Positions 1,463 through 19,745 of a stretch of DNA of 33,410 bases are shown here, piece by piece (the first letter of the stretch is position 1; each line of letters begins with the position of its first letter). The position numbers and the translations under genes were made by a program. The notes beneath the pieces were generated by a model. It ran no database searches and had not been told where the DNA came from. It saw only the letters and a program-made list of their open reading frames with translations. The stretch comes from Bacteroidales bacterium (GTDB lineage Bacteria > Bacteroidota > Bacteroidia > Bacteroidales > UBA932), in NCBI GenBank assembly GCA_017550025.1, contig JAFYLU010000075.1, positions 1 to 33,410 on the forward strand, given 5' to 3'.

Positions 1463-3130
1463 ATGGATTGGCTAATCGAAATATTTACTGAACATACATT
1501 CATCCAGACAATAATTGTTCTTTCCCTGATATGTGCCGCAGGTCTTCTGCTTGGCAACATCAGGATATTCGGGGTTTCGCTCGGCGTCACCTTCGTATTC
1601 TTTGCTGGCATCATTGCCGGACATTTCGGAATCACTGTCAATCCGGACATGCTCACCCTTGCCCAGAACTTCGGTCTGATACTGTTCATATATGGCCTCG
1701 GAGTACAGGTGGGCCCGGGCTTCTTCTCGTCTTTCAAGAAAGGAGGCATCAGGCTTAATCTCCTCGCCGTCCTTCTGCTTCTTGTCGGCACGATGACCAT
1801 GATGGCTGTACACTGGACCACAAAGATGCCTGTAGGCGAAGTAATGGGCCTGTTTTCCGGAGCAGTGACCAACACTCCTATGCTCGGAGCGGCGCAGCAG
1901 GCACTTCTGCAGATACATCCGGAAGACACTGAAGGAGCAAACACCATGGCCATGGCCTGTGCCGTAGGTTATCCTTTCGGAATAATCGGCATGATCCTCT
2001 GCGTTGTCATCATGCGCAAGATCTTCGGAGGAAAAGACAAGGCCTCAAGGGATACTTCTTCTGACAACACGTTCGTGGCTGAATATAATGTGAGCAATCC
2101 GGCTATATTCGGCAAAACCGTCATGGAGATAAGAAAGAACGCTTCATGCCAGTTTGTGATTTCAAGAATATGGAAAGACGGGAAAGTTATCATCCCGACT
2201 TCAGAGACCATAATAGAGGAAAACGAACACCTGCTTGTAATATCAAGCAAGGAAGATGTGGAAAAGGTCAAGACTCTGTTCGGATATAAAGAGAATGTGG
2301 ACTGGAACAAGAAGGACATCGACTGGAACGCAATCGACAATCAGCTCGTTTCACGAAAGATTCTTATCACCAAGCCTGAGATCAACGGCGTGAAGCTCGG
2401 CTCGCTGAAGCTGCGCAATTCTTATGGAATCAACATCACAAGAGTGAACAGAGCCGGCATAGACCTTCTTCCGAACCGCTCGCTCCATCTTCAGCTCGGC
2501 GACAAGCTCACTGTAGTAGGAGAGGCAAGGGCAATCGAAAATGTCTGCGCAATACTCGGCAACCAGGGCAAGGAACTCAGCAATCCTAACCTTTTTGCAA
2601 TATTCGTCGGCATAGTCCTCGGGCTTGTAGTGGGAAGCATCCCGATCATGATTCCGGGCATGGGCATGCCTGTGAAGCTCGGCATTGCCGGAGGACCGAT
2701 AATCGTGGGACTGCTGATGGGAGCATTCGGACCACGCATGCACCTTTCAACATATATGAGCCGAAGCGCAAACCTCATGCTCCGACAACTCGGACTCACC
2801 ATCTATCTGGCCGGACTGGGCCTGAGCGCCGGTGCCGGATTCTTTGAGACGGTCTTGAGTGCAGAAGGTGCAAGATGGATACTTATAAGCCTTGTGCTCG
2901 CAATGGTTCCGGTACTTATAACAGCCTTCATAGCGGCGAAGATATTCAAGACAAGATACGCCGACAATGTGGGCATGCTCTGCGGAAGTATGGCAAACCC
3001 CTTCGCCCTCGAGTACGCAGACCCTGATGGCGAAGGGGATGATCCTGCCGTAGCCTATGCCACGGTATATCCGGCAAGCATTTTCCTGAGGGTGATTTCC
3101 GCCCAGATCGTAATGCTTATCTTGTTATAG
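1463..3130 (+). CDS. AspT/YidE-type putative antiporter with two RCK-C domains
   Basis: A 555-residue protein of the aspartate:alanine exchanger (AAE) family, the length of E. coli YidE and YbjL. The layout is typical: an N-terminal set of membrane segments with IYGLGVQVGPGFF (about 70-85), two soluble TrkA-C/RCK-C domains (about 208-275 and 295-365) carrying the usual hydrophobic beta pattern with GDKLTVVG, then a second membrane set with IYLAGLGLSAGAGFF, which is an internal duplication of the first. The last segment contains MANPFALEYA. The gene follows the chromate transporter genes by 24 bases. Its 3' end overlaps the end of the convergent WG-repeat gene by 14 bases, so no terminator separates them. 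The substrate is not predictable from sequence. Confidence 0.85.
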   Translation: MDWLIEIFTEHTFIQTIIVLSLICAAGLLLGNIRIFGVSLGVTFVFFAGIIAGHFGITVNPDMLTLAQNFGLILFIYGLGVQVGPGFFSSFKKGGIRLNLLAVLLLLVGTMTMMAVHWTTKMPVGEVMGLFSGAVTNTPMLGAAQQALLQIHPEDTEGANTMAMACAVGYPFGIIGMILCVVIMRKIFGGKDKASRDTSSDNTFVAEYNVSNPAIFGKTVMEIRKNASCQFVISRIWKDGKVIIPTSETIIEENEHLLVISSKEDVEKVKTLFGYKENVDWNKKDIDWNAIDNQLVSRKILITKPEINGVKLGSLKLRNSYGINITRVNRAGIDLLPNRSLHLQLGDKLTVVGEARAIENVCAILGNQGKELSNPNLFAIFVGIVLGLVVGSIPIMIPGMGMPVKLGIAGGPIIVGLLMGAFGPRMHLSTYMSRSANLMLRQLGLTIYLAGLGLSAGAGFFETVLSAEGARWILISLVLAMVPVLITAFIAAKIFKTRYADNVGMLCGSMANPFALEYADPDGEGDDPAVAYATVYPASIFLRVISAQIVMLILL

Positions 3131-6100
3131 GGTATTTCCAGACGACATGGCCGAGTTCGTCGATACGCACTCGTTCGCCCTTATACATGGCACCGGCCGC
3201 TCCGTAACGGAACATCGACCCGTCTTCATAAAGCTCTACAGAATCACATTCTGCAGGGAAAAGCACAGTTCCATCCGGTCTGAAGATACCATACTTGCCT
3301 TCATTTTCCACAAGGATGAAACGGTCTGAAGCGATCTCGGTCTTGTCAAATTCAAACGGAACGATGACATTTCCTTCCTTATCGATCACTCCCCATCTTC
3401 CGTCCATAGCTACGCAGGCCATTCCCTTGCGGAAATCCGTCGCATGGCTATATTTCTGCGGTAAGACAAATTCACCGGATTTGTTGATATAACCGAATTT
3501 TCCCTGGCTGCCCATATATGCCAGTCCTTCAGACATAGAGCCGCCGGCGTCAAATGCAAAAGGCACGACCCAGCCACCCAAGCCTCCGCCTTGCTTCAGA
3601 CGCACCATTCCTACCTTGCCCCAGGTTGTGACCAGGGCGCAGCTGTCAACAAAGTTCTCGACCTCGTCACTGAAGGCACCGATAACCCATTTACCATCTT
3701 TATCAATGAATCCGAATCTCTTGTCCTGCGGATTACGCGCTCTGGCCATTCCACCCGCATACTCCCTGATTTCATCACGTTCGATCGGAACAATCATCTT
3801 TCCTGTCTTGTCAAAACATCCGTACAGACCATCCCTTGTAACTATGATCACATCCTCACTCATCCTGCCGACATAATCATATTCCAAAGGTACGACCACC
3901 TTACCGTTGACATCTATGACTCCTGACTGCCTGTCAAGGGTAACCCTCGCATACATAGGATTCTCCAGAAGCTCGAGGAGATCGTATTTCGGTTCTATCA
4001 CAATCCTGCCTTCCTTATCCATCAGGCCATATTTTCCATGATGTCTGAACACAAGATGATCCTCGCCAAAGCCTCCGAATTCCCAGTCATAATATGGGTC
4101 CTCCGGTATAGACTCCCACTGCAGCACCGGACGCTTCAGCCATTTTCCTTCTTCGGAAACGATTCCGCATCCTCCCAGCAGACCTTCTCCCCACTGCTCC
4201 CAAACACATTTATGACGTACTCCGAAATTATCACCCACACTCTCAAGAAGGAAATGAGGATAGTAGTCAGAGCCGAAGAGCCTTTCGCCAAGGAATTCCG
4301 TCTTTGCATATAGGAGATGATCCCTGCATATGATGCCGGTAAAACGGGCATTGCTGGCTGCAATTTTCATTTCATTGTTCTTCTCGCCTCGCTTGGTAAG
4401 CTGGACAACGAAAGGAACCTCTACGCCATATTCTTCTGTATTTATGGTTGAACCGCAAAGATATATGAAGTTCTCCGTCTCATCCATGCTATAGAAAGTC
4501 TCTCCTGTGCGAGGACGATACTCCCAGTCAAACATTCCGTTCCTGTCATATTTCTTCAGTGTATTGTCAGGATCGGCAAGGACGCTTCCGCCTGCATGCA
4601 GATAAAAACCGCCGAAAGACGAACCTGAAACCTGATATTCAACAGGAGAAGGCAGCTGTACAAATGAAGTGGCTGCACGGGTATTCCAGTCAAATGTAAT
4701 GATGGCCTGGCACTCGTTGGCAGGGCTGGCAGTGCCCTTGTGCAGGAGAATATGGTAGTGAGGCAGAGGAAGATTCAGATGATCTGTCTCCACAAGGCTT
4801 GAAGAAGGATCTTCAGCAGTCCTTATAAATGCGAAGCGGACCATAAGGCGATCATCCGGAAGCAATGCGAAATCTACAGGATATATGCCGTCAAACTCCT
4901 TGACATTGAAACCGGTCAATGCATTCCTCACCGGGAACTGATCATCATCCACAGTAATAAGGTACTCGTTGCTGTCCTGAATCTGCACAAGATTAACAAC
5001 ATGTCCGGCAGGAGATTCCGCCCTATAATGAAGATTATGATATCCCGACTCATTGTCAGGAACTATGCCGGATGCCACGAAAAATGTTCCGCAATCCATG
5101 ATGCCGTATTTTTCTCCGGCGACAGCCCCCGGTATCATAGTCTCTATTCCTTTCGGCATTGAATCGTCCTGACCGGCTCCATATGCATCATAGCCATATC
5201 TGACAAGCAGGTCGACTGCTGTCTGGGCTGCTGAAATCTTCTCTTCATGCTCACTGACATTGCTGCTTATGACATCTGCCTTGGCCCAATCCGGAAGAGA
5301 CTTGGCCGCTGTTACTATCTCATCTTCCATTCCGGAATCGTGGAACATCTCATATATCGACATGTATTCATCAAACGGATATACACCGTCTTTATTACCG
5401 GCATAATAGACCCCGTCATAAAACAATTTGATCAGACGTTCTCCGATAACAGGTTTCTTATCCTCTACCGGATGAAGCATGTCCCTCATCTTGAAAGAAA
5501 GGGCTCCATACTTGTTTCCTACCCTCGTGACGAAATAATCTCCTGATATCGACATCACAATCTCATCATACACGCAAGGAGCCACAAACTGACCATATGG
5601 AGTTATCACACCCTGCTTTCCGTCCTTCATCACGATATACAGTTCCCTCTTCTGCAGCTTATAGTAACGGGTATCATCCGGATTGGCATCGTATGGAGTA
5701 GTATCGTAATCAAGAGCCAGAATCTCCTTGCCATCCTTCAGGATTCCCCATTTGTCACCCTTTCTGATGAACTCAAGGCCCAGCGACTTGTCCATTTCAA
5801 ACATATCGTCGAACTGAAGATCAAGGCAGACTTCACCCTTTTTATTTATAGTACCATATTTGCCATCCTTCCTTACCTTATAGCCATAATCTGCATACTC
5901 TATCGCATCGAATGTATTCGGATGGGCCATACGTCCCCTGGCATCTATAAGACAATAAATGCCGGAAAACGCAACGACAGCGAGGCTGTCTGCAGAATAC
6001 GGATCAAAACGGTCATATATGGGCTCCACCACATATAATCCACGATTGTTGATGGTACCCCATTTCATGTTCCAGTTTATTCGGGCTACATTACCCTCAT

Positions 6101-6323
6101 ATTCATATGCCGCATTGAACACAGGCTTGACAACAAACTTGCCTTCAGAGTCGGCATATCCCCACAATCCGCTCTTATGTTTCTGCGGAACTATCTTTTC
6201 AGCAAGCTTGCTTGCCTTTATTTCCTTCAGCCTCGGCATCTCTTCCTGCATCTGCGCATAGGTATTGAACGACATACCGAAGAAGACTGTCATGGCAAGA
6301 AATGTATATGCAAGATTCCTCAT
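3117..6323 (-). CDS. Exported WG-repeat protein
   Basis: A 1068-residue protein with an N-terminal signal peptide ending near NTYAQ. About six WG-type repeats occupy residues 30-290 (GLWGYADSEGKFVVKP, KYGTINKKGEV, KWGILKDGKEI and similar). A second block of about eight repeats fills roughly 760-1068 (KYGLMDKEGRIVIEPKYD, RFGFIDKDGKWV, KFGYINKSGEFVLPQKY, RWGVIDKEGNVIVPFEF). The roughly 450 residues between them have no WG repeat and I do not recognise them; they are rich in Asp and aromatic residues. The ATG at 6323 is used; the longer frame starts at a TTG. It is the last gene of the leftward signalling block, 39 bases after the permease. WG repeats are generally taken as binding surfaces, so an extracytoplasmic ligand-binding or scaffold role is inferred, not shown. 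Confidence 0.8.
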   Translation of the reverse strand: MRNLAYTFLAMTVFFGMSFNTYAQMQEEMPRLKEIKASKLAEKIVPQKHKSGLWGYADSEGKFVVKPVFNAAYEYEGNVARINWNMKWGTINNRGLYVVEPIYDRFDPYSADSLAVVAFSGIYCLIDARGRMAHPNTFDAIEYADYGYKVRKDGKYGTINKKGEVCLDLQFDDMFEMDKSLGLEFIRKGDKWGILKDGKEILALDYDTTPYDANPDDTRYYKLQKRELYIVMKDGKQGVITPYGQFVAPCVYDEIVMSISGDYFVTRVGNKYGALSFKMRDMLHPVEDKKPVIGERLIKLFYDGVYYAGNKDGVYPFDEYMSIYEMFHDSGMEDEIVTAAKSLPDWAKADVISSNVSEHEEKISAAQTAVDLLVRYGYDAYGAGQDDSMPKGIETMIPGAVAGEKYGIMDCGTFFVASGIVPDNESGYHNLHYRAESPAGHVVNLVQIQDSNEYLITVDDDQFPVRNALTGFNVKEFDGIYPVDFALLPDDRLMVRFAFIRTAEDPSSSLVETDHLNLPLPHYHILLHKGTASPANECQAIITFDWNTRAATSFVQLPSPVEYQVSGSSFGGFYLHAGGSVLADPDNTLKKYDRNGMFDWEYRPRTGETFYSMDETENFIYLCGSTINTEEYGVEVPFVVQLTKRGEKNNEMKIAASNARFTGIICRDHLLYAKTEFLGERLFGSDYYPHFLLESVGDNFGVRHKCVWEQWGEGLLGGCGIVSEEGKWLKRPVLQWESIPEDPYYDWEFGGFGEDHLVFRHHGKYGLMDKEGRIVIEPKYDLLELLENPMYARVTLDRQSGVIDVNGKVVVPLEYDYVGRMSEDVIIVTRDGLYGCFDKTGKMIVPIERDEIREYAGGMARARNPQDKRFGFIDKDGKWVIGAFSDEVENFVDSCALVTTWGKVGMVRLKQGGGLGGWVVPFAFDAGGSMSEGLAYMGSQGKFGYINKSGEFVLPQKYSHATDFRKGMACVAMDGRWGVIDKEGNVIVPFEFDKTEIASDRFILVENEGKYGIFRPDGTVLFPAECDSVELYEDGSMFRYGAAGAMYKGERVRIDELGHVVWKYPITR

Positions 6324-6362
6324 AACTGAAATGTATTTTATATTAACCCTTGACAAAGGTAA

Positions 6363-7964
6363 TTATTGTCTGTCATATATCAAATCTCCGGGAGTAGCCT
6401 TAAGAAGGCCTGTCATGACCGCATAAACAGTGAATAGTGCCGAAGATATGATTATTATAATGGCGATTGCCGTCTTCAGGCTCCAGAGTGAAAGATAGTC
6501 ATAAACTCCGTCTTTCAGTATTCCGCATATATGCATCAGGCCCTGAAGCATCCATGTAAAGGACAGGGACATCAGAAGCGCACATATGACGATGGCCGCC
6601 ATGATAAGGAGATACACGCTTATAAGCTTTGCGCTGCTGATGCCGAACGCCTTGAATGTACCGAGATTCCTCCTGACTTTCTGGAAATAAGACTGCAGAA
6701 GGTTAACGATGAAAAGAATGATGCAGACAATGGCAAAGATTATTATGCCCCATGAAAGAATATTTCCCATTATGCTGACTGCATTGAAATTCTCCTTGGC
6801 ATTGATCTGTGCCATCTCTATCTTTACCTCAAACTCATCGTAAACATATTTTTCAAAATCCCGGAGCATGTCAAGGTCTTCAAAATGCACCGAAATAAAG
6901 GATGTGTGAGGCAGAGGGTCGTCGCTGAATTCATATTCATATACACGGTGTACATCTCTGCCGCGATATGACTCCATCACTTCCCTGTCGATGTCATGCC
7001 ATGCCTGATACCCGGTCCAGTCGTAAGATCTGAACGTAACAAAGTCACCCTTCCTGAAAGGTACGATCTGCGGGAAATAAAAGCTGCCTTCGTCCGCCTC
7101 TATCTCATCAGCCATATATTTTCCCGCGATTGTCATCACATCTGAAATGAAGCTCTCCATGCCGATCTCTTCCGGAACGAAATAGCAGAGAGTCTCCGCA
7201 TATACTGATCTTGCAAGATCGAAAGGCCATGTAATGCCGTTCCTCATCTGCTCATGCAGATATGAATCTGCAATGAAGTCTACATTTCCGGGAAGCTTGC
7301 TGACAACAGCGAGAACAGGTATGGGAGCTCTCGCGAAAACGGCTCTCGAGGTTTCCTCAACGACAGCAACTCCATATTCATAAGCACCCGCTATATCCGG
7401 GATGCCGCTCTTGTAGGAGATATATGCAGGGGCACGGTCATACCCGAGTTTTGCCAAGGCCTCGCCGGTAATGATCATACCTATCGTATTTGTATCGACT
7501 TCTGAAATATCATCGACCTTCCAGTCTCTCACAACATTGGCATCCTTCAGGATTTCCCTGACAAGATCAGTGTCAAGATCTTCAAAGAAGCGGCCCTTCA
7601 GATATACAGACACATCATCATCCTTACCATAGAAGTCATAGGCTGAATAAAAATCCATCTGATAATCATGATAATGGAAGCGCTCCTTGTTTTCGTCAGA
7701 CCTGAGTGCCTCTCCCAAAGCCCTGAAGTCACCGGTATGTTCATTCTTTATATCCACCCAGTTGATGAAAGGGTCATCCATCTTATATGAGAGATAATCC
7801 AGGCTGGCATTACTGAAAGCTATGGCAAGAAATGTAGCCGTCAGGACAGCTGTCAGCAGCCACAGATTAGAAAGATTCTTTCCAAGCACGACCTTTCCTT
7901 CCCTCTTGACAAAAAGACGGAAATAGTCGTTTCGCAGCATATCGAAGATTTTCATAGAGATCAT
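6363..7964 (-). CDS. FtsX/MacB-type ABC transporter permease
   Basis: A 533-residue permease with the four-segment topology of the FtsX/MacB group: one membrane helix near 33-52, a large extracytoplasmic domain (about 55-395), then three helices near 400-423, 447-470 and 495-517. The link between helices 2 and 3 (YFQKVRRNLGTFKAFGIS) is the cytoplasmic coupling region typical of FtsX. Its start codon overlaps the stop of the ATPase gene as ATGA, a sign of translational coupling, and this supports the first ATG. Permeases of this type move or mechanically act on envelope substrates or regulate hydrolases; they seldom import. Next to kinases and a phosphatase it recalls TagS, which together with TagT works upstream of PpkA in Pseudomonas type VI secretion control. 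That parallel is an inference from context. Confidence 0.85.
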   Translation of the reverse strand: MISMKIFDMLRNDYFRLFVKREGKVVLGKNLSNLWLLTAVLTATFLAIAFSNASLDYLSYKMDDPFINWVDIKNEHTGDFRALGEALRSDENKERFHYHDYQMDFYSAYDFYGKDDDVSVYLKGRFFEDLDTDLVREILKDANVVRDWKVDDISEVDTNTIGMIITGEALAKLGYDRAPAYISYKSGIPDIAGAYEYGVAVVEETSRAVFARAPIPVLAVVSKLPGNVDFIADSYLHEQMRNGITWPFDLARSVYAETLCYFVPEEIGMESFISDVMTIAGKYMADEIEADEGSFYFPQIVPFRKGDFVTFRSYDWTGYQAWHDIDREVMESYRGRDVHRVYEYEFSDDPLPHTSFISVHFEDLDMLRDFEKYVYDEFEVKIEMAQINAKENFNAVSIMGNILSWGIIIFAIVCIILFIVNLLQSYFQKVRRNLGTFKAFGISSAKLISVYLLIMAAIVICALLMSLSFTWMLQGLMHICGILKDGVYDYLSLWSLKTAIAIIIIISSALFTVYAVMTGLLKATPGDLIYDRQ

Positions 7965-8833
7965 ATCCGTTTAAGATACGACTCGAAGTCGCATGTCCTG
8001 TAAATATCCTTGCCATTAGTCCACTGTTCCCTGTCGGAAGAAGGCACATAGAGGCAGTCTTCATCAACCACACCATAGCTCACGACCTCATCCTTCGCTG
8101 CAGGAGAAGCATACTCCTCTTTGCGGATCTTGATTATCACATCGGCAAAGGTCACCGCGAGATGCATGTCATGAGATACTATTACGGCAGAGCTGCCCTC
8201 AAGTTCACCAAGTTTAGCAGAGAGAAGTTCCATCGCCTTCACGGCATTGTCACTGTCAAGGTTTCCTGTCGGCTCGTCACCGAAAAGAACCGTGAAATCA
8301 GGAAGGATCGCACGGGCAAAAGCGAGCCTCTGCTGCTGGCCTCCTGACAGTTCATGGGCCATACGGTCTTCCGTCATATTCCCCAGTCCGAGATCGGAAA
8401 GCACCTTTCTGGCCTTCTCGAACGCCTCCGTCCTCGGATATCCCTGAAGCATGCGGGTCAATGCAATGTTTTCATAAGCAGTGAAGTTCTTCATGAGATT
8501 GGTGCTCTGAAAGATGAAATCGAAATGCTCCAGCCTGAAACCGGATAGCTCGTCATCATCATTGCGTTCCCACATTGCAAGCAGGTCCACCGGTGAACCG
8601 TCATTGTCATAAAAGACAAACTTCGTGTCCGCACATGGAACCATGGTATTGTTCATCAGGCCGAGAACCTCAAGTATCGTACTCTTGCCTATACCCGACT
8701 CGCCCACAACAAACACCTTCTTTCCTTTGGGCAGAACCAGCTTTCTGATATCCAGTACAATCTTCGGTTCTCCCTCGCGGAAATCCTTGTCATAAGAACA
8801 TTTGAGTGATGATATTTCAAATAACCTCTCCAT
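7961..8833 (-). CDS. ABC transporter ATP-binding protein (LolD/MacB group)
   Basis: A 290-residue ATPase. All core motifs are intact: Walker A GESGIGKST at 44-52, Q-loop near FIFQSTNLMKNFT (107-117), signature ELSGGQQQR (161-169), Walker B VLFGDEPTGNLDSD (182-195) with the catalytic Glu, and the switch His in VSHDMH (219-224). The wording EPTGNLDS is typical of LolD/MacB/FtsE-type ATPases that partner with FtsX-like permeases. A C-terminal extension of about 55 residues beyond the usual fold ends in ESYLKRI. The ATG at 8833 is preferred over a TTG at 8845; an AAAAGG sequence precedes it. Translation is coupled to the permease by a 4-base overlap. Energises the partner permease at the inner membrane. 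Confidence 0.9.
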   Translation of the reverse strand: MERLFEISSLKCSYDKDFREGEPKIVLDIRKLVLPKGKKVFVVGESGIGKSTILEVLGLMNNTMVPCADTKFVFYDNDGSPVDLLAMWERNDDDELSGFRLEHFDFIFQSTNLMKNFTAYENIALTRMLQGYPRTEAFEKARKVLSDLGLGNMTEDRMAHELSGGQQQRLAFARAILPDFTVLFGDEPTGNLDSDNAVKAMELLSAKLGELEGSSAVIVSHDMHLAVTFADVIIKIRKEEYASPAAKDEVVSYGVVDEDCLYVPSSDREQWTNGKDIYRTCDFESYLKRI

Positions 8834-8853
8834 CTGCCTTTTCAATTTTCTCT

Positions 8854-11220: not shown

Positions 11221-11239
11221 ATCTAACTCACTTTTAATC

Positions 11240-11845
11240 TTAATATTGCATGAACTTCACACTTGAACCACGACTGAAATTCATGGTTCCGAAAGGAAAT
11301 TCCCTATCTATGACAAGCCCGTCTCCGGCCGCGTGAAGTACTCTTGTCTTCACATAGTCAGGATACATGTTAAGCTCAAGCTCGAAACAAAGGGAAGCTA
11401 TAAGCTCCTCATTATATCTGTATTTCCAGAAAGACGGATTGACATACCAGCTGAATTCCACCGAAGAATATTCCGGAGTACCGTCTTCAGTGATGAAGTC
11501 ATGAGTGTTGAAAAGGTCAATGATGCCGGCATAATCAGTATCCGCATAAGTATCATGAGCCGGCTTCAGCCTCAATTCCCTGATGATGGTCCTGAAATCA
11601 TCCCTGTTATCACCCTGAAGGTTGATTTTCACAATGATGGGCCTGTCATAATTCGCCATATAGAAGATAACGGCACGACTGTCACTGCTGACAGCATCAT
11701 CATATATCTGCTCAAGCACTTCGCACAGCCTCGCAACCGGAGTTGTCCTGTCATGAGCGATATAATGAAACTCCAGAGACTGCGTCTGCGCCCTTGCTGA
11801 AATAAAGACCAAAAGGACCAGGATTACACATATTATTTTTTTCAT
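11240..11845 (-). CDS. Small exported protein of unknown function
   Basis: A 201-residue protein with a clear cleavable signal peptide (MKKIICVILVLLVFISARAQ). The mature part is mixed alpha/beta. A stretch near 55-95 reads like a Rossmann-type or nucleotide-hydrolase strand-helix pattern (SRAVIFYMANYDRPIIVKI) but has no catalytic motif I recognise. It ends with a strand-rich segment (TMNFSRGSSVKFMQY). It lies 2 bases after the membrane protein gene and 19 bases before the vWA gene, so it should be co-transcribed and probably works in the periplasm with them. No function is assigned. Confidence 0.7.
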   Translation of the reverse strand: MKKIICVILVLLVFISARAQTQSLEFHYIAHDRTTPVARLCEVLEQIYDDAVSSDSRAVIFYMANYDRPIIVKINLQGDNRDDFRTIIRELRLKPAHDTYADTDYAGIIDLFNTHDFITEDGTPEYSSVEFSWYVNPSFWKYRYNEELIASLCFELELNMYPDYVKTRVLHAAGDGLVIDREFPFGTMNFSRGSSVKFMQY

Positions 11846-11847
11846 TT

Positions 11848-12564
11848 TTATTCCTTTTCCGTTATTGTAAGACGATAGCCTTTAAGTTTACCGTCAGCAT
11901 CATACTCGATATCTGAAACATCGGCATGTAAATTAGTGTGTGCTGCCATATAGTTAGCAATGGATCTTAGATCTGTTCGCTTTTCCAATTGGGAGAGATG
12001 CCCAATAGTAAAGGCATCTGCCTTAAGTTGAACAATACTACACTGCTTGTCTTGCCAACCTCGATCTAATTTTGCTTTGCCATTGAAAAAGTCCTCAAGT
12101 TTTTTTTCTGTCAGACGTGCGTCCATACTGAGCTTTGCTCGAAACCCGCTGACCTCTATAACTTCAGACAACTCCTCCGTCCTCTTATTCTTTACCACCA
12201 GATAATAAGTCTCATCGGCCTTGCCTGGTATAGAGATAAATTTACCGCCTTTACCTTCATAACATTTGCCATTGCATTCCTTATTCTCAAACAGAAAATA
12301 AGACAACGTGTCGTCAGACTCTACAAAAGCATTGGCAGTCAAGGAATATCTTGTTCCGTTCGATACCGGTTTAAGCTCAACAGTCGTATCCACTACAGGT
12401 ATGGTAGATAGTTCCGGCAAGACTACAGCTGCAGCCTCATCTGCGACTTCATCAGCTGTCTTATATTCTTCTCCAATAATCGCACTTTCCAAAAACCATC
12501 CGCACACCCCGCTTATAACAAACACGAGGGCAAGCATAATTATCTGTTTGTTTTTCATAATCAT
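11848..12564 (-). CDS. Single-pass membrane protein of unknown function
   Basis: A 238-residue protein with one N-terminal membrane segment (about 8-25, ending in CGWFLESAI), an acidic stalk (EEYKTADEVADEAAAVV) and an extracytoplasmic domain. A CNGKC pair occurs near residues 95-99 and could bind metal or form a disulfide. The C-terminal half contains a KLEDFFNGKAKLDRGWQ stretch and ends in TITEKE. The start overlaps the stop of the barrel gene (TAATG). The gene is noticeably more AT-rich and uses rarer-looking codons than its neighbours on both sides, so it may be a later addition to the block. Topologically it could be a periplasm-facing adaptor; T6SS proteins TssO and TssP have a similar topology, but I see no sequence basis for equating them. 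Confidence 0.65.
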   Translation of the reverse strand: MIMKNKQIIMLALVFVISGVCGWFLESAIIGEEYKTADEVADEAAAVVLPELSTIPVVDTTVELKPVSNGTRYSLTANAFVESDDTLSYFLFENKECNGKCYEGKGGKFISIPGKADETYYLVVKNKRTEELSEVIEVSGFRAKLSMDARLTEKKLEDFFNGKAKLDRGWQDKQCSIVQLKADAFTIGHLSQLEKRTDLRSIANYMAAHTNLHADVSDIEYDADGKLKGYRLTITEKE

Positions 12565-13883
12565 TACAATTTAAATTTGATTCCTGCTGAAAGCCATACG
12601 GTTCCCCTGCGGAGCGACACTCCGTTCATCAGGGAATAAGGATCGACATTTCCATATCCATGGCTGAAAAATCCAAATTCATATCCGCATCTTATCATGC
12701 CATATATCTTGTTCTGAAGCAGATTGAGATCAATTCCAAGATTGGCTGTGAGAGCCAGATCATATGGATTCTCCCTTGAATATCCCTGCGATGTCTTGAC
12801 CTCATAATATCCCTTCAGACCGACATTCCACACAAATGAAGCAGGTCTGCAGAATCTGTGTTCGAATTCCGCATACACAGGAACGGAAAGATCAAGATAC
12901 CTTACCCTCTGATATCTGTCCTGCCCGTTAAGATGCAGAGTACTCAAGGCCATGCCGACACCACTGTTGATGCTGAATTTCGACTTGCTGCCCATAGGAT
13001 ATGCCACACCATATTCCAGACCGAGCTCAAGGGATTTCGAGCGTGTACTGATATCATCCGGTGCCTCGACAAGATATACAAAAGGGGAATAAGAGGCACG
13101 AAGTCTGAAGCGGGCATTCTTCATATGGAACCAATATGCCATCACATCATAATCGGAAGCCGGCGAGACTACAGAGCTTTTCACCTCTACGTCAGGGTCC
13201 TCGACCATAGCCTCACCTGACGGAAGTATCGCCTGCCCGTACCTGTTGTAAACCGGAGCTTCTCCTCCTACGGTAAGAGAAGAATAATATTCCTGCTCGG
13301 CTGCCGACGCATATTCGTCACGGTTGAGAATTATGTATCTGCCTTCCGGGAACTGTCTGTCAGATGTGATTTCTCCGTTGATCGAGCGGATATGGCATCG
13401 GTCAGTCTCCTTGTCATAGACAACCTTCATGGTCATCCTGGCAGGAGTACCATGGTATCCCTCAACCGAGAAGAAATATCCTGACTCATTCATATATGAC
13501 AATTCTTTCCAGAAATATACAGGAATGACCCACTTGCCGTCTGAAAAATAAGGCTTTCCCTTGCTGACATCCTTTATCACGACAGATGTATTCCTGGCAT
13601 GATTCTTCAGGATATCCATATATTGAAGCAAGCTCGTCTTCATCTGATAGTATGGTATTCCGGGAACATCGCAGAATACACAAGCATCGTTTCCTTCAAA
13701 CAATTCAAAGAAAAGGTGTTCAGCTTCCTCATCATGCAGAGCCGCATATCTCTCGTAATCCTTGACCAAAGCCAGGACAGTGGAGTTCATCTCACGCCTC
13801 TCCTTGTTGGTAAGCGTCTGTGCACCAAGGATGAAAGGTAAGAACAACAGAAAGAATGACGCTATGATGCCTGATCTTTTCAT
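12564..13883 (-). CDS. Probable outer-membrane beta-barrel protein with N-terminal periplasmic domain
   Basis: A 439-residue protein with a signal peptide (ending about LGAQT). Residues about 25-200 form a soluble region with an NTF2- or SnoaL-like feel (KDYERYAALHDEEAEHLFFELF, where each helix is amphipathic), including a Cys pair CVFC. From about residue 240 to the end the protein has alternating hydrophobic strands rich in Tyr and Gly, and it finishes in VWLSAGIKFKL, as expected of a barrel with a C-terminal amphipathic strand. The barrel part is short, about 8-10 strands. It starts 4 bases after the kinase gene stop. As the likely outer-membrane component, it extends the block from cytoplasm to cell surface. 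Confidence 0.65.
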   Translation of the reverse strand: MKRSGIIASFFLLFLPFILGAQTLTNKERREMNSTVLALVKDYERYAALHDEEAEHLFFELFEGNDACVFCDVPGIPYYQMKTSLLQYMDILKNHARNTSVVIKDVSKGKPYFSDGKWVIPVYFWKELSYMNESGYFFSVEGYHGTPARMTMKVVYDKETDRCHIRSINGEITSDRQFPEGRYIILNRDEYASAAEQEYYSSLTVGGEAPVYNRYGQAILPSGEAMVEDPDVEVKSSVVSPASDYDVMAYWFHMKNARFRLRASYSPFVYLVEAPDDISTRSKSLELGLEYGVAYPMGSKSKFSINSGVGMALSTLHLNGQDRYQRVRYLDLSVPVYAEFEHRFCRPASFVWNVGLKGYYEVKTSQGYSRENPYDLALTANLGIDLNLLQNKIYGMIRCGYEFGFFSHGYGNVDPYSLMNGVSLRRGTVWLSAGIKFKL

Positions 13884-13887
13884 AGCC

Positions 13888-14997
13888 CTATATGAAATAA
13901 TTCAACAGAAATCCAATTGCAAGACCAGCAGCTGCTGCAATCGCCCAGACTGCAGGACTGACCTTGCTTCCTGCCTCCTTCTCCGGATAACCGCTGCCGA
14001 ACACATTGGCTGGGGCAGGACTTGCATTGTCTGCACCAGCGATATTATGTCCCTGGGCCACAACGGTTCCCTTCACATTACGCGAAGACGGCTTCCCCCC
14101 CTGCTGAACGTTCTCCGCCGCGGGAGTCTGTCCGGCCTCCTGAGTACTGTCTGCCGTCCCTGCCGCCTTCCATGTAGGCTGCGGAGAATCCCCATTCACC
14201 ATCTTGCCTGCAAATTCAGCAAGTTGCTGTGCAGTAGGGCGTTCCCAAGGCTGCTTCGCCATACATGACTGACATACGAAGTCGAGCGCCTGCGAGAATT
14301 CTTCCGGAAGTTCAGGCATATCGGCTCCCTGCTTCTGCAGACTTCCACCCATACCGCAGAATGGCAGCTCACCTGTAGCAAGTTCAAAGATAGAAGCACC
14401 CAAAGACCAGATGTCGCTTGCCTTGACGGCATGATACTGCTTGCTGAATCGCTCCGGTCCCATATACGAAATGGCTCCTGCAGAATTGAGTGAACGCGCA
14501 CTCTTCTTCATGGTCGCACGAAGCTGCTTGCTGATGCCGAAGTCAGTGATGACGAAATCACCGTTCTTGAGAATCAATATATTGTCCGGCTTGATGTCCT
14601 GATGAATGATAGGAGGCTGCTGCGAATGAAGATATGCCAGTCCGGAAGCCACATCACGGATGAAACGCCAGAGATCCTCCTCACTCATCTGTCCCATGAA
14701 CTTGTTTACAGATCCTTCCGGACAGAAAGGCATTACAAGATATGGCCTCTTGTCATCGGAGTTGACACCAAGATAATTGGCATGGAGAAGGTTGGTGTGA
14801 TTCAGTTCAAAGGAAATCTGAAATTCCTTCTTGAAATCTTCAAGACCCTTCTCGTCCATCGAGACATATACCTTTATGGCAACCTCGATGTCAGTAGCCT
14901 TATCAACGGCCACCCAGACCTCTCCAAAGGTTCCGCTGCCGACATATCGTTTGAACTCATATCGGCCGTCAAGTATGTATCCTTCTGAATATTGCAT
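13888..14997 (-). CDS. Tail-anchored Ser/Thr protein kinase, HQD type
   Basis: A 369-residue eukaryotic-type kinase. Residues 12-265 hold the catalytic domain: Gly loop GSGTFG (20-25), Lys42 in AIKVY, catalytic loop IIHQDIKPDN (130-139), DFG (152-154), and MGPERF in place of the usual APE region (179-184). The HRD Arg is Gln, so this is a non-RD kinase that may not depend on activation-loop phosphorylation. A Pro/Gln/Ala-rich linker (268-345) leads to a single C-terminal membrane helix (about 347-368) with almost nothing beyond it. There are no PASTA or other outside domains. The gene starts 1 base after the phosphatase gene ends, so kinase and phosphatase are made together. The place of the kinase corresponds to PpkA in the threonine-phosphorylation pathway. 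Confidence 0.9.
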   Translation of the reverse strand: MQYSEGYILDGRYEFKRYVGSGTFGEVWVAVDKATDIEVAIKVYVSMDEKGLEDFKKEFQISFELNHTNLLHANYLGVNSDDKRPYLVMPFCPEGSVNKFMGQMSEEDLWRFIRDVASGLAYLHSQQPPIIHQDIKPDNILILKNGDFVITDFGISKQLRATMKKSARSLNSAGAISYMGPERFSKQYHAVKASDIWSLGASIFELATGELPFCGMGGSLQKQGADMPELPEEFSQALDFVCQSCMAKQPWERPTAQQLAEFAGKMVNGDSPQPTWKAAGTADSTQEAGQTPAAENVQQGGKPSSRNVKGTVVAQGHNIAGADNASPAPANVFGSGYPEKEAGSKVSPAVWAIAAAAGLAIGFLLNYFI

Positions 14998-14998
14998 A

Positions 14999-16168
14999 TT
15001 ATTGTGCTGTTGAATCTATGTGTTCTGTAATGACTGTTGCAGTATCCTCGATCACGGTCTTGTTCTCCAACTTCTCCACACTGCTGCGTATCAGCGAATC
15101 CACACCGCTGACATTGATCTGGATATTTTTGTTTGCGTCTACCGTAATGAAGCCGAAATGGCATGCTGCCGCAACGATTCCGGCCAGCACGAGCACCACG
15201 ATCAGGAATGAAAGGAACTTCTTCCCTGCAGATTTCGGCTTGCTGACTTTTGTTCCGGTTTCAGTTTCTTCTCGTTTTTCATTTTTCTTCTTCCTGCCTG
15301 ATTCGGTAGGAGAAACAGTACTCGCAAGGTTCTGCTCCTTGACGCTCATGCACTCGAACAATGCAATGGTCACATTGTCATATGCACCTTCCTCGAAGGA
15401 AGCATTGAAAAGTGCCTCCTTATAATCTGCAAGTCTTCCACGCTCCTGCATCATAATATTTAAAATCTGCTCATCTCTTACAAGACCGCAAAGACCGTCT
15501 GTACAGAGAATCACATAATCGCCCGCTGAAAGACGCCTGCACACATAATCAGGCTGAGCCTTGACAGGAGAATCTCCGAGGCTGCGGGTGATGATATTGC
15601 TGTTAGGGTGATCAAACGCGAGTTCCGGGTCAAGCTTACCAGAGTCGACCAATTCCTGAACATACGAATGATCGTTGCTCAACCTGCTCAAGCCGGACTG
15701 TCGGTTGAACAGATAGGCACGGGAGTCGCCGCACCATGCCACATGCACGACTTCTCCGATAATCCAAGCCATCACGATGGTTGTACCCATTCCGGCTGTG
15801 GACGGGTCTTCCTTTACCCTCTTCTTGATAGCCGCATCAGCCTCAACGATTATCTTTTTAAGGAAAGCCTCGACATGGTTGCTGCAATCTGCAATCTTTG
15901 AAAAATCCGAAACTTTCGAAAAGGCATTCTGCACATGCGTCACCGCTATTTCAGATGCAACTTCTCCGGCATTCATACCGCCCATTCCGTCAGCCACGAC
16001 CATGACGCAGCCATTCTCACCGAGTGAAAGAACTTCATCGGCATTTGCAGGAACTATCCATCTTCCCGGTTGAGTCAGATCCGGATTGACGATGAAATTG
16101 TCCTCATTATTGCTGCGCACCAGACCCACATTGGTCGCAACCGTCATTTTGAAGGTAATATCAGACAT
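14999..16168 (-). CDS. Membrane-anchored PP2C-type Ser/Thr phosphatase
   Basis: A 389-residue protein. The PP2C fold covers about 1-275 with all metal-binding signatures: NNEDNF (20-25), ADGMGGMNAGEVAS (59-72), GTTIVMAWI (128-136), GDSRAYLF (147-154), LCTDGL (221-226) and DNVTIALF (264-271). A charged linker of about 40 residues precedes a membrane helix (about 317-338), and 50 residues extend beyond it. With the catalytic domain in the cytoplasm this tail would be periplasmic. Typical PppA-like phosphatases lack the helix. It presumably reverses phosphorylation by one or both kinases of the block. A strong 13-base hairpin (16194-16226) lies upstream between this gene and the preceding one. 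Confidence 0.92.
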   Translation of the reverse strand: MSDITFKMTVATNVGLVRSNNEDNFIVNPDLTQPGRWIVPANADEVLSLGENGCVMVVADGMGGMNAGEVASEIAVTHVQNAFSKVSDFSKIADCSNHVEAFLKKIIVEADAAIKKRVKEDPSTAGMGTTIVMAWIIGEVVHVAWCGDSRAYLFNRQSGLSRLSNDHSYVQELVDSGKLDPELAFDHPNSNIITRSLGDSPVKAQPDYVCRRLSAGDYVILCTDGLCGLVRDEQILNIMMQERGRLADYKEALFNASFEEGAYDNVTIALFECMSVKEQNLASTVSPTESGRKKKNEKREETETGTKVSKPKSAGKKFLSFLIVVLVLAGIVAAACHFGFITVDANKNIQINVSGVDSLIRSSVEKLENKTVIEDTATVITEHIDSTAQ

Positions 16169-16193
16169 AATTTAAGTAAAAGCGATTAAACAT

Positions 16194-16226
16194 AGTATGG
16201 TGGCAGCCTGAAACTGCCACCATACT
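16194..16226 (-). other. Strong intercistronic hairpin
   Basis: AGTATGGTGGCAG (16194-16206), 7-base loop, CTGCCACCATACT (16214-16226): a perfect 13-base stem. It lies in the 91-base gap between the small exported protein gene and the phosphatase gene. On the transcribed (minus) strand no U-run follows directly, so it is not a clear terminator; an mRNA processing or stabilising element, or partial attenuation, is more likely. On the plus strand a T-run follows after 10 bases, but nothing is known to be transcribed that way here. Confidence 0.6.
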
Positions 16227-16259
16227 TAACGGTATTTTTTTAAAAAATCAGCTGCAAGA

Positions 16260-16685
16260 TTAGTCAACCTCCTGACCGAAATCATAGAATCCGCCTGTCT
16301 CGTTGTAAACAGTTGTACCGCCTTCGTACTCACGGATAGTCTTGTTGATCTTGTTGTAAAGGATGTTGTAATCCTTCTGTGCAGACATGAAGCTCTGCTT
16401 TCCGGAAGCAAGGTAACGGTTGATAAGAACAACATTCTCACGGAGGTCGCGTACTTCTTCGATAGTATCACACTTCGCATACTCGTCATTTGCCTGACGG
16501 ATGAACTCTGTGATGATCTCAAGCTGGTTCATCTTTGTTGCCTTCTTGAACTGCTTGAAAGAAGCGTCAAGGTGAATCATGTCGAGCGGAATAGCCACAT
16601 CCTTACGACCCATCTGGGCAGCGCACTCGATCGATGCAGCAAGAACAGTGATAACTGCTGCAAGTGTCAATAAAATCTTTTTCAT
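16260..16685 (-). CDS. Small exported helical protein
   Basis: A 141-residue protein with a signal peptide (MKKILLTLAAVITVLAASIECAAQ). The mature chain of about 117 residues looks almost entirely helical, with heptad-like spacing (FKQFKKATKMNQLEIITEF, and VRDLRENVVLINRYLASGK), and ends in an acidic tail (GFYDFGQEVD). It has no recognised domain. Its codon choice is unusually uniform and resembles that of the phosphoglycerate kinase gene in this window, suggesting it is abundant. It follows the membrane FHA gene by 29 bases, so a periplasmic partner of that protein is plausible. Confidence 0.75.
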   Translation of the reverse strand: MKKILLTLAAVITVLAASIECAAQMGRKDVAIPLDMIHLDASFKQFKKATKMNQLEIITEFIRQANDEYAKCDTIEEVRDLRENVVLINRYLASGKQSFMSAQKDYNILYNKINKTIREYEGGTTVYNETGGFYDFGQEVD

Positions 16686-16714
16686 AATCTTAATAGTTTT
16701 ATAGTTGTGATTGT

Positions 16715-17734
16715 TTAGAATTTCTTAAGGGTCTTCTTTGCACCTTCTTCTTTCTTGTCGAGAGCAGGCTCTTCATTCACACCCTCTTTCTTGAGTACTG
16801 GAGCCTTCTCTTCCTTGGTATAGATCTTAACCTCTTTCTCCTTTACTGCCTTTACCTCCTCAGCCACAGGAGCTGCCTTTGCTGCCTCCTCAAGCTTCTG
16901 GTTGAGCTCCTCAAGCTTTGTATTTGCAGAATTTGCATCCTTGCCAGCCTGCTCTGCTGCCTCTGCAGCTACCTGAAGTTCGTCACGGAGAACCTGTGCA
17001 TCCTGGATAAGGGCCTCACGCTCTGCCTGTGCAGCCTCAAGACTCTTGATAAGAGCCTCACGCTCTTCTGCAGACTTGTTCTTGCTGTTGTCAAGCTCAC
17101 GATTGAGTTCATTGATCTCCTTTTCGTTTCTCAAGAGCTCATAAGTAACATCCTCGATCTGCTGCTCCTTCTTCTTGAGGTCGTCATGGAGAAGATAAGT
17201 CCATGTAAGGAGACCACCTACTGCAAGTACAAGAACGATTGCCATAACCCAAAGCGCACGCTTGTATGGACGAAGAGCCTGCTGACGGAAGAGGCTAAGA
17301 CGCTCTGTCATTCCGATGCTGCTTACAAGGCTCTGCTTGCCCTGAGGGATGATGAAGCCCATGAGCGGACCCTTTGACGAAAGACGGATCTCATCTCCGG
17401 AATTGAGGACCTGCTCTCCCTGGATAGGTGTTCCGTTCACGATTGTAGAGTTTGTCTGTGAAAGCGGAATGATCTTCCAGTTCTCACCGTCCTTCACGAT
17501 TGCCGCATGGCGACGGCTTACAGTCTCGAAAGCCTCGTCAAAACGTACCTGACATGCTGAATCACGACCGAGTTCCACCTGATCAACGATGATCTTCTGT
17601 GACTCGCCTGCATGGTGATACAAAGACTCTGTCTTATGCTCCAGGATATAATACTGGCGTCCTGAACCATTGAAGACCGCTGCCACACCGGCACCGACTG
17701 AACCGGCTACGGTTCTTTTGTAGTTTGCCTCCAT
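16715..17734 (-). CDS. FHA-domain membrane protein with coiled coil
   Basis: A 339-residue protein. The FHA domain at about 47-130 keeps the phospho-threonine-binding residues: GRD (56-58), SRRH (73-76) and NG (100-101) in IVNGTPI. A membrane helix follows (about 159-182). The remainder is a long predicted coiled coil (about 183-288; Glu/Lys/Ala heptads such as EINELNRELDNSKNK), then a charged Lys/Glu tail. With the FHA in the cytoplasm the coiled coil would lie in the periplasm, where it could contact the small exported helical protein encoded next. The extreme N-terminus contains YKRTVAG, a Thr-Val motif like those repeated in the zinc-ribbon protein, so it may itself be phosphorylated. The protein takes the position of Fha in the threonine-phosphorylation pathway. 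Codon bias suggests high expression. Confidence 0.88.
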   Translation of the reverse strand: MEANYKRTVAGSVGAGVAAVFNGSGRQYYILEHKTESLYHHAGESQKIIVDQVELGRDSACQVRFDEAFETVSRRHAAIVKDGENWKIIPLSQTNSTIVNGTPIQGEQVLNSGDEIRLSSKGPLMGFIIPQGKQSLVSSIGMTERLSLFRQQALRPYKRALWVMAIVLVLAVGGLLTWTYLLHDDLKKKEQQIEDVTYELLRNEKEINELNRELDNSKNKSAEEREALIKSLEAAQAEREALIQDAQVLRDELQVAAEAAEQAGKDANSANTKLEELNQKLEEAAKAAPVAEEVKAVKEKEVKIYTKEEKAPVLKKEGVNEEPALDKKEEGAKKTLKKF

Positions 17735-17775
17735 AATTTTGATTTAGTTTAGTTAATTATAAATAGTTATTGAAT

Positions 17776-19089
17776 TCAGACATCATATTTGAGCTTCACA
17801 TCTCCTACAGTGATCACATCTCCTTCCTTCAGCACTCTTCCCGACTGGCCGACAGAATGAGAATTCACATATGTACCGTTCATCGAATTCTTCCACACCG
17901 AATTCTCAAAGTCCCACTGTCCGTCGCGGATCTGCCACACCGCAGTTCCAACCTTCTCAAAAGTGCAGTGCCTGCGCGACATGTAGGATTCATCATAATC
18001 ATTTATGCAGATATTGTTGGAGCCTTCCCTTCCCATCGTAAGCATCCTTCTTCCAAGGTTTTCAGCAAGAGCATCAAGGTCATATGACTTTCCGAACTCC
18101 TTGCCCTGCATGATTTTCAGACTTCTGCGGCCCGTAACCTTCACTACAGCCTCCTTTGAGGTCGAAGTAAACGTCTGTGACACCGGTTGCGCTTCACCAC
18201 GAGGAAGATATGACATCGCCTCTTCGGCAGAGCTTATCCTGTCCTTAAGATCAGGCATCAGACATTTCGATATAAGGTTCTGCCAGACCATTCCGTCGGG
18301 AGCCGAAAGCAGCTTCATCCTGTCCCACTCACCGGCCTTGCCGCGCTTCTGGTAATGCACAAGGTCATTCTGGTCCTCAAGCTTTCCGAAAGGAAGCTCT
18401 CCGGTAATGAGCTGATACATCATCACGCCAAAAGAGAACATATCCGTCGTCGGAAGAACCGTACTGTTTCCACGGGCACGATTGACCTGTTCAGGCGGCA
18501 TATATGCATATGTTCCGAATATCTGCTGCGGTTTTCCGAATATATTCCTCTCCGTCATTCTCTTGTTACGGTCACCGCTGATGCCGAAATCCGTCAGCAC
18601 AGCTGTTCCGTCAGACTTGAAAAGCACATTTTCAGGCTTCAGATCCCTATGGACCTTTCCGTTCGCATGAAGGTCACGAAGTCCGTTAAGCACATCGTAG
18701 GCAATCTTTACAAGTGGTGTTCCGGTCTTGCCGACATATTTCGAGAGGTCTCCTCCGTCACAGAACTCCATTATTATATAAGGGTTGCCTTTCAGGAATC
18801 CTGCATCAACCGAATGAACAAGATTGCGGCTTGCAATGCAGCTGGTCTTGTATTCCATCTCAAATCGGCTCACAAGAGGCTGTCTGATAGTAGAAGGCAC
18901 ATCCCAAAGCCTCAAAAGCTTCATGGCCCAAAGCTTGCCGGCAGTGTCACTTACCTTATAGACAACACCGAAAGATCCCTGACCAAGCTCCGATTCCACA
19001 CGATACTTCATTCCGACCATTTCTCCTGGACGAAAATCGCATCTTTCCGGAATGACGACATTACCCGAATATGTATTATTCAGACTCAT
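17776..19089 (-). CDS. Cytoplasmic Ser/Thr protein kinase with C-terminal FHA domain
   Basis: A 437-residue protein. The kinase domain at about 25-298 has a Gly loop GQGSFG (36-41), Lys57, a standard HRD catalytic loop (VHRDLKPEN, 146-154), DFG (167-169) and MPPEQ (197-201). The FHA domain at about 348-437 has GRE (353-355), SRRH (371-374) and NGTYVN (404-409). No membrane helix is visible, so it is probably soluble or recruited through the FHA. This differs from the second kinase of the block, which is HQD-type and tail-anchored. Its start overlaps the stop of the zinc-ribbon gene as ATGA, indicating translational coupling. Self-recruitment to its own phosphorylated product through the FHA domain is the usual logic of such fusions. 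Confidence 0.92.
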   Translation of the reverse strand: MSLNNTYSGNVVIPERCDFRPGEMVGMKYRVESELGQGSFGVVYKVSDTAGKLWAMKLLRLWDVPSTIRQPLVSRFEMEYKTSCIASRNLVHSVDAGFLKGNPYIIMEFCDGGDLSKYVGKTGTPLVKIAYDVLNGLRDLHANGKVHRDLKPENVLFKSDGTAVLTDFGISGDRNKRMTERNIFGKPQQIFGTYAYMPPEQVNRARGNSTVLPTTDMFSFGVMMYQLITGELPFGKLEDQNDLVHYQKRGKAGEWDRMKLLSAPDGMVWQNLISKCLMPDLKDRISSAEEAMSYLPRGEAQPVSQTFTSTSKEAVVKVTGRRSLKIMQGKEFGKSYDLDALAENLGRRMLTMGREGSNNICINDYDESYMSRRHCTFEKVGTAVWQIRDGQWDFENSVWKNSMNGTYVNSHSVGQSGRVLKEGDVITVGDVKLKYDV

Positions 19090-19745
19090 TTCTGAAACTT
19101 ATAACGAATTCCCGAGATGACAACGACCTCATCAAGATGCATTTCAATAGGAGCTTCACCCACTCCGTCGACAGGAACAAGTCTGAAGACTTCCTTATCC
19201 TCGACAATAAGTTCCTCCGGAATATCACGGACAGTAGCCTTAAGGAATTTAGGCTTGATGCCTTTTCCTAACATCACGGTCTTCTGGGACACAGAACCAG
19301 ACGCACTTTCACCCAATCTTACTGTAGCCATTCCTGAAGAAGCTTCTTTCTGAACAGGAGCCGGCTTCTGCGCTCCAGGCTTCTGCACGGTAGCCCCACA
19401 GTTAGGGCAGAACTCCACCTCTGCAGTAACAGGATAATGACATTTAGGACATTGACCTGCCACGGTCTCATCCCCCATGACCGCATTCACGTCCATGATA
19501 GTCGCAGTCATGGCCTTGCGAGGCAAAGCCGAAGGCTGCTCCGCACCAAATGCTACCGTCGCCATCATGGATTTCTTTTTTTCTGCCACTATGGTTTCTG
19601 GCTGGGCAACGGATTCCTTAACCGGCTCTGGTTCAGCATTCACTGAAGGCTGAACAGCGACAGGCTCGAGGCCTTCATCATCGCACATTTCACAACGAAC
19701 AGCGGTATCAAGATTGAACCAACCGCAATTATTACATCTTTTCAT
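19086..19745 (-). CDS. Double zinc-ribbon protein with repeated Thr-Val motifs and FHA-like end
   Basis: A 219-residue protein, first gene of the leftward block. Two zinc-ribbon Cys sets are visible: C4, C7, C18, C21 and C99, C102, C113, C116. Low-complexity linkers rich in Pro, Val and Ala separate them. Six short motifs of the form x-Thr-[Val/Ile] recur: MATVAFG (T63), TATIMDV (T82), ETVAG (T94), MATVRLG (T141), KTVMLG (T156) and KATVRDI (T171). The C-terminal 45 residues (VFRLVP...VVVISGIRYKF) are strand-like and could be the last part of an FHA-type fold. I infer a substrate or adaptor whose Thr motifs are phosphorylated and then bound by FHA domains; this is not shown. It is translationally coupled to the kinase downstream and has its own promoter at 19767-19798. 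Confidence 0.8.
   Translation of the reverse strand: MKRCNNCGWFNLDTAVRCEMCDDEGLEPVAVQPSVNAEPEPVKESVAQPETIVAEKKKSMMATVAFGAEQPSALPRKAMTATIMDVNAVMGDETVAGQCPKCHYPVTAEVEFCPNCGATVQKPGAQKPAPVQKEASSGMATVRLGESASGSVSQKTVMLGKGIKPKFLKATVRDIPEELIVEDKEVFRLVPVDGVGEAPIEMHLDEVVVISGIRYKFQK

Follow-up and report, generated by a model that had tools for sequence, protein, structure and literature searches.

A conserved envelope gene block with a TssR homologue and no detectable type VI secretion system in Bacteroidales

The window, as we call the whole stretch of DNA analysed here, comprises 33,410 nucleotides (nt) of contig JAFYLU010000075.1 from a Bacteroidales bacterium (assembly GCA_017550025.1; 2.62 Mb, 83.5% complete, 6.4% contamination). 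It holds a block of 13 open reading frames (ORFs), all on the minus strand (positions 3117-19745), in which Pfam recognizes WG repeats, an FtsX domain, an ATP-binding cassette (ABC) ATPase, a TssR-type von Willebrand factor A (vWA) protein, two Ser/Thr kinases (one with an FHA domain), a PP2C phosphatase, an FHA protein and zinc ribbons. We show that this block belongs to a conserved envelope system with TssR, a protein of the type VI secretion system (T6SS) of Bacteroidota, in its core and with no detectable T6SS. Our best reading, drawn in part by analogy, is that the block is not a T6SS, that its TssR and the T6SS-iii TssR are sisters, and that it would work like the TagQRST/PpkA pathway, the most similar in action of the known cascades.

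TssR and the conserved envelope core

The gene at 8854-11220 encodes a protein of 788 residues (aa) that matches all three Pfam TssR domains (PF17643, PF20782 and PF20781; N-terminal barrel, vWA and C-terminal domain) at 48.8, 46.5 and 31.1 bits, each above the cut-off of 25.7. Moreover, a profile of 15 relatives aligned over 652 columns with a profile of three T6SS TssR proteins, with a probability of 99.7%. The guess of the preliminary description that this vWA protein resembles TssR was thus correct and, by sequence comparison, the protein is a full-length TssR homologue. No lipobox was seen by eye, and the vWA motifs (DxTxS and the distal Asp) are retained. Against PDB sequences, the TssR profile gave weak integrin I-domain matches, the best with an E-value of 0.0069.

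A scan of species genomes yielded 18 relatives' loci, 19 with the window, from genomes assigned to Bacteroidales, Alistipes, Rikenellaceae or Coprenecus, seven of which came from ruminant or deer gut samples. When the TssR_VWA model was run on congeners, 12/120 matched, four above the cut-off, and weaker matches were not counted as TssR. Six genes form a core: a barrel candidate, an anchored immunoglobulin (Ig)-like protein (called TssP-like below), p200, TssR, the ABC ATPase and the FtsX permease. The first four are present in 19/19 loci and the last two in all 16 loci that reach them, the contigs of L088, L097 and L101 ending earlier; wherever the contig extends over all six genes, which is the case in 16 loci, gene order and strand are kept without exception. 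Accidental adjacency of the block genes, which the preliminary description had set beforehand as a ground for giving up its proposal, is ruled out by this conserved core across the 19 loci.

The link between TssR and an ABC-FtsX pair was also found at higher taxonomic levels. In the order survey, 15/393 genomes matched the TssR search: four T6SS genomes (G090, G216, G311 and G380, with TssC present and TssR in the T6SS loci), the window's own genome, G336, whose short and partial vWA match (19.4 bits) was not counted as a carrier, and nine others. In these nine, 11 long TssR genes are distributed over 10 loci. The gene run of TssR includes the ATPase and the permease, as two genes or fused, in 9 of these loci, in places with a shorter TssR-like paralogue ahead of them. 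Only G228 contig 1 (L064 16495-18981) departs from this: its long stand-alone TssR has no ABC-FtsX alongside, while the second TssR of that genome has them. At the phylum level, 31/395 genomes matched at 1e-6. The 13 genomes whose matches were long or scored high, the genome of the window not counted, were searched for TssC: 10 have it and three do not (G754, G848 and G729); three weaker matches were also tested, G933 having TssC and G896 and G945, both left out of further counts, being without it, and the other 14 were left out. Neighbourhoods were read for 7 of the 10 TssC-positive phylum genomes, plus G933. In G754, G848 and G729, TssR is followed by an ATPase and a permease. By comparison, TssP adjoins TssR in all 12 T6SS TssR loci read and an ABC or FtsX match was found in none, some of these stretches being only 8-12 kb long.

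In a tree of 45 TssR rows, a single branch (SH-aLRT 99) separated 33 stand-alone from 12 T6SS TssR proteins, and the block TssR does not group among the T6SS TssR. Rows longer than 600 aa were taken, leaving out L097 and the shorter TssR paralogues, and the TssR of L088, L096, L100, L102 and L103, identical to those of G656, G041, G647, G027 and G552, were each entered once. L091/L092 and L093/L094 are near-copies, some near-copies are omitted from alignments A5-A10, and one row of alignment A12 and one order-level protein are fragments cut at the slice end. On this tree, the stand-alone and T6SS-iii TssR are sister families. The further suggestion that the block might be an ancestor of T6SS control was not borne out, the tree giving two sister groups and having no outgroup. 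The vWA metal-site segments (DxTxS or DxSxS plus the distal Asp) are kept in all 30 Bacteroidales stand-alone rows and occur together in 0/12 T6SS TssR rows. This pattern fits an older role for the stand-alone TssR, without proving it.

Additional TssR-like genes were seen in several relatives. Shorter paralogues lie beside the long TssR at L047 13421-16248, L049 8654-10120, L050 19-1056 and L051 from 17647 to the slice end; in the paralogue at L047 14863-16248, both terminal TssR domains (N and C) are present and the vWA domain had no match. L082 159-4892 (G656, same as L088) carries two full-length TssR genes in tandem.

Search for a type VI secretion system

Nineteen genomes with a stand-alone TssR were counted as carriers, 12 of which are at least 90% complete. 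TssN was found by search in none of the 19, both controls being positive. TssC was tested directly in 15 carriers, the window's own genome included, and none was positive; the other four (G552, G637, G647 and G656) were not among the 13 TssC matches in a draw of 300 congeners, which is taken to be the same draw as in the block survey. A protein with a gp25 domain (TssE/gp25) was found in 3/19 carriers (G248, G754 and G848), in none of the seven carriers of the window's genus and not in the window's own genome. The three genes (L152, L153 and L154) lie elsewhere than the block, in two of three cases on the TssR contig, and possibly belong to another contractile system or to a phage.

Within the 300 congeners, 13 have TssC and 7 have the block, with no overlap. 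Mutual exclusion is not shown by these counts, because the overlap expected by chance is only about 0.3. In the TssC-bearing congeners (L148-L151 and others; 337-434 bits), the stand-alone TssR profile found nothing. With no TssN or TssC found in the carriers and a gp25 domain in 3/19, an ordinary T6SS regulator locus was rejected. The preliminary description had also set beforehand a T6SS beside the block as a reason to abandon its proposal; none was found there, with TssN in 0/19 carriers and no TssC.

Block organization and the exchangeable signalling cassette

Re-reading of the ORF list reproduced exactly the earlier map of thirteen leftward genes, with intergenic gaps of at most 91 nt, two overlaps of 4 nt and one of 1 nt. 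The widest gap (16169-16259) lies between the p141 and PP2C genes. The GC content of the block (0.467) is close to that of its flanks (0.474 and 0.488), so that there is no signal of a genomic island.

The first gene (19086-19745) encodes a 219-aa protein with a Pfam zinc ribbon above cut-off, and the second (17776-19089) a Ser/Thr kinase with a C-terminal FHA domain, the motifs HRDLKPEN and DFG, and no transmembrane (TM) segment found. They are followed by an FHA protein (16715-17734) with the motif SRRH, one TM segment by hydropathy (160-178) and a charged, helical-looking tail, and by p141 (16260-16685), a 141-aa protein predicted from its N-terminal hydrophobic signal to be exported, for which no Pfam or NCBIfam family scored above cut-off and whose profile matched in 7/19 loci. 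The PP2C phosphatase (14999-16168) has a TM segment at 318-336 by hydropathy and a short tail; its DGMGG motif is kept in 16/16 family members and its profile matched in 16/19 loci, the others being L089 and, both cut by contig ends, L097 and L098. Last in this cassette is a tail-anchored Ser/Thr kinase (13888-14997; TM 346-364, motifs HQDIKPDN and DFG).

Two exchangeable types of cassette precede the core when the loci are read one by one. Type A, as in the window, is found in eight loci (the window, L088, L090, L100 without p141, L101, L102, L103 and L104), and the HRD/DFG pattern is matched throughout its kinases. Type B, in nine loci (L091-L096, L098, L099 and L105), comprises FHA, PP2C, FHA-TM, double-FHA-TM-trypsin, p324 and kinase proteins, with varying completeness. 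L089 has kinase and zinc-ribbon matches and no PP2C or FHA match, and L097 is too short to be typed. At the order level, kinase, PP2C and FHA matches were obtained in G186 and G420, and kinase and PP2C matches in G454; for G128, G228, G275, G410, G248 and G436, the kinase, PP2C and FHA profiles had no match within the stretches that were read. The thirteen-gene block initially described is real and belongs to a conserved system, but its best-kept part is the envelope machine, the cassette being exchangeable and unmatched by the profiles used in several relatives at order and phylum level.

The gap between p141 and PP2C contains a hairpin with a 15-bp stem (16194-16226). A hairpin is present in 6/6 p141-PP2C gaps (window, L088, L090, L101, L102 and L104), with stems of 12-15 bp, z-scores of -2.9 to -7.3 and stem sequences that differ among the six loci; in L103 the two genes abut, with no gap for a hairpin. 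In the other gaps of at least 25 nt between recognized block genes, one stem of 12 bp, in a gap of 328 nt in L103, is the longest, the rest being at most 9 bp. These observations suggest that selection maintains an element for attenuation or processing where the cytoplasmic part of the block gives way to the envelope part, and the hairpin of the window may divide or tune the transcript. Because it is conserved inside the operon, transcription from a single promoter, as originally assumed, is not established; the promoter scan of the window was at chance (26 sites against 25.9 in shuffles).

The envelope part begins with an exported outer-membrane beta-barrel candidate (12564-13883). Its profile matched order-level proteins at 99.9, 99.1 and 99.3%, was weaker in G186, G454 and L137 (80, 89, 89 and 65%), had no match in any of the proteins tried from G128 (two) and L139 (three), and gave one match among PDB sequences (E 0.86). 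L101 (5492-8616) and L103 (3-1097 and 7076-8611) show an additional barrel gene, which stands in tandem or lies upstream of the block. The TssP-like protein (11848-12564) is modelled with a TM anchor, an Ig/FN3-like sandwich and an alpha/beta C-terminal domain (AlphaFold2 pLDDT 81.4, pTM 0.47). In PDB fold searches, this model had good coverage over its Ig/FN3 part (53-143) alone, and the matches listed include no TssP entry; its profile against PDB sequences gave a muscle Ig protein at best (E 0.0074). The product of the next gene (11240-11845), p200, is a secreted protein of 201 aa with a predicted vWA fold (AlphaFold2 pLDDT 86.9, with vWA fold matches), without a canonical metal-ion-dependent adhesion site; His31 is invariant in its relatives, and its profile had no match among PDB sequences.

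Downstream of TssR lie an ABC ATPase of the LolD/MacB/FtsE kind (7961-8845; Pfam ABC_tran) and an FtsX-domain permease (6363-7964; 26.5 bits, cut-off 25.5) with four TM segments by hydropathy and a loop of about 350 residues between the first and second. LolD was the best NCBIfam row for the ATPase, at 127.6 bits against a cut-off of 307.75, so that the LolD equivalog level is not reached, and the best 25 rows all fall below their own cut-offs. The permease profile had no match among PDB sequences. The outer-membrane barrel is proposed from sequence only.

The last gene (3117-6356) encodes a secreted protein in which Pfam finds 10 WG stretches; it probably starts at an in-frame ATG at 6323 rather than at the listed TTG at 6356, which leaves a gap of 39 nt. 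No lipobox was found in it by pattern, and 10/11 BACON proteins at the last-gene place have a lipobox-like pattern. Elsewhere, some order-level loci hold proteins with type IX secretion system (T9SS) sorting tails. In G128, SrfB and SrfC (Virul_Fac) genes (L051 5825-12682) share the gene run of the stand-alone TssR and ABC-FtsX, and the same locus (L052) holds an FGE-sulfatase protein and a PKD protein. A group II intron match above the Rfam threshold lies at the end of the contig (33273-33364).

Proposed function and comparison with known systems

We give about even weight to the proposal that the block encodes a stand-alone, ATP-driven trans-envelope machine, controlled by phospho-threonine and built on a TssR-family periplasmic scaffold. 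The tail-anchored kinase and PP2C would set a phosphorylation state read by the FHA proteins, of which the FHA-TM protein would cross the inner membrane and carry an on/off signal. ABC-FtsX would do mechanical (conformational) work on a TssR/vWA/Ig-like complex across the periplasm, rather than pump a solute; this complex would dock to the outer-membrane barrel and assemble, display or gate the last-coded repeat protein (WG or BACON), secreted or at the surface.

Several observations weigh against this proposal and against the relationship to T6SS-iii that accompanies it. The preliminary description had suggested profile comparison of the block proteins with TssR, TssO, TssP and TssQ, and TssR was clearly recovered. 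Counterparts of TssO and TssQ were not found in the block, and p141 and the FHA-TM protein, tried for these roles, are not supported (at most 0.7%). Homology to TssP is not significant: the TssP profile gave 2.0% in one comparison, and in another 7.1% for the whole protein and 20.5% for the C-terminal domain (controls at most 0.5%). The TssR tree came from a quick search, with midpoint drawing, no outgroup and five long branches, and outside Bacteroidales the vWA motifs are lost in the TssC-free G754 and G848 (rows L137 and L138) and partly in G729 (row L139). The HRD pattern is not matched in type B kinases (L017 reads HRDLDPSN), and five second kinase-like proteins of type B cassettes have neither motif. 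Finally, the last gene varies over the 19 loci, with BACON profile matches in 11 and WG profile matches in 4, both being found in L090 and L100, and with other proteins at this place in L093, L094 and L103.

By analogy with TagQRST-PpkA, which according to the part of PMC11881912 consulted responds to outer-membrane damage, the ABC-FtsX/TssR/vWA part could instead sense outer-membrane injury and fire the kinases, the output lying elsewhere in the cell. The shared set of kinase, PP2C, FHA and ABC-FtsX speaks for such a sensor, but we consider it rather unlikely: no TagQ- or TagR-like gene was recognized in the block, the large secreted or surface protein encoded after the permease in most relatives suggests a local client, and relatives without a recognized kinase cassette retain the machine. 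That last-coded product could also be the substrate of a dedicated export or surface-display system with a Lol-like ABC motor and accessory signalling, as the best NCBIfam score of the ATPase (LolD), the lipoprotein-like BACON proteins and the T9SS sorting tails might indicate. This is improbable, since the LolD score is far under its cut-off, a pattern search finds no lipobox in the window's WG protein and lipoprotein export leaves two vWA proteins unexplained. Finally, the block could be left over from a T6SS, or be a regulator detached from one, the T6SS itself having disappeared or being encoded in sequence that the assembly does not include. The TssR homology, the completeness of the assembly (83.5%) and the scattering of T6SS-iii genes over several loci in some cases (in the part of PMC10781749 consulted) lend themselves to this idea. 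It is very unlikely given that TssN and TssC were not found in carriers that are at least 90% complete in 12 cases, that block and TssC do not overlap among congeners (about 0.3 expected by chance) and that the stand-alone TssR has its own side of the tree.

Beyond the window, we tentatively propose, at somewhat less than even confidence, that the trans-envelope machine represents an undescribed, phylum-wide and T6SS-independent class driven by ABC-FtsX and built on TssR, with a second vWA protein and a barrel in Bacteroidales and, in gut Bacteroidales, a full phospho-threonine circuit of a type previously linked to T6SS; it or its ancestor would have supplied TssR, and perhaps TssP, to T6SS-iii.

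Type VII ABC systems include MacB, LolCDE and FtsEX. The block resembles them in the kind of ATPase and in a four-TM FtsX permease with a large loop, and differs in the linkage of ABC-FtsX to TssR and in an ATPase whose best 25 NCBIfam rows all stay under their cut-offs.

PpkA has a periplasmic vWA domain, whereas in the block vWA is found on separate secreted proteins. No TagQ or TagR was recognized in the block, TagQ having no model of its own to match, and none of its 13 proteins matched the FGE-sulfatase fold, which we take to be that of TagR. The preliminary description had listed counterparts for the T6SS-control functions: kinase, PP2C and FHA indeed occur in one locus, the likeness of the ABC pair to TagT/TagS holds at the family level only, and TagQ and TagR are missing from the recognized set. 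The block is similar to the TagQRST-PpkA-PppA-Fha locus of the P. aeruginosa H1-T6SS, as given in the part of PMC11881912 consulted, in uniting a kinase, PP2C, FHA, an ABC ATPase and an FtsX-type permease, plus vWA, and differs in that the TssC, TssN and gp25 searches found no T6SS to be switched. It offers a T6SS-free kinase/phosphatase/FHA and ABC-FtsX circuit for study.

The block can also be compared with T6SS-iii. The sections of PMC10781749 consulted describe its membrane complex in Bacteroidota as TssNQOPR, report no homologues of this complex detected outside T6SS loci and state that its origin is hard to identify, as no T6SS-independent locus encodes the set. In the open-licence literature searched, we found no report of TssR outside a T6SS, which is not proof of its absence in print. 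The block holds one clear member of the complex, TssR, without making up the full set: genes for TssN, the sheath or the baseplate were not found, nor were TssO and TssQ, and its TssR stands beside ABC-FtsX, has no lipobox by eye and keeps the vWA motifs. What the two systems have in common is a full-length TssR and, encoded nearby, a periplasmic protein that is anchored by a TM segment and bears an Ig-like domain, its layout being comparable to that of TssP. A Pfam TssR hit alone does not prove a T6SS. Because the two TssR groups are sister families, the T6SS-iii membrane complex and an ABC-driven system of the envelope would have a TssR in common within Bacteroidota. The stand-alone TssR is full length, it belongs to a conserved system with which no T6SS was detected and, as a sister family, it occurs across the phylum, so that the question of the origin of this complex becomes testable.

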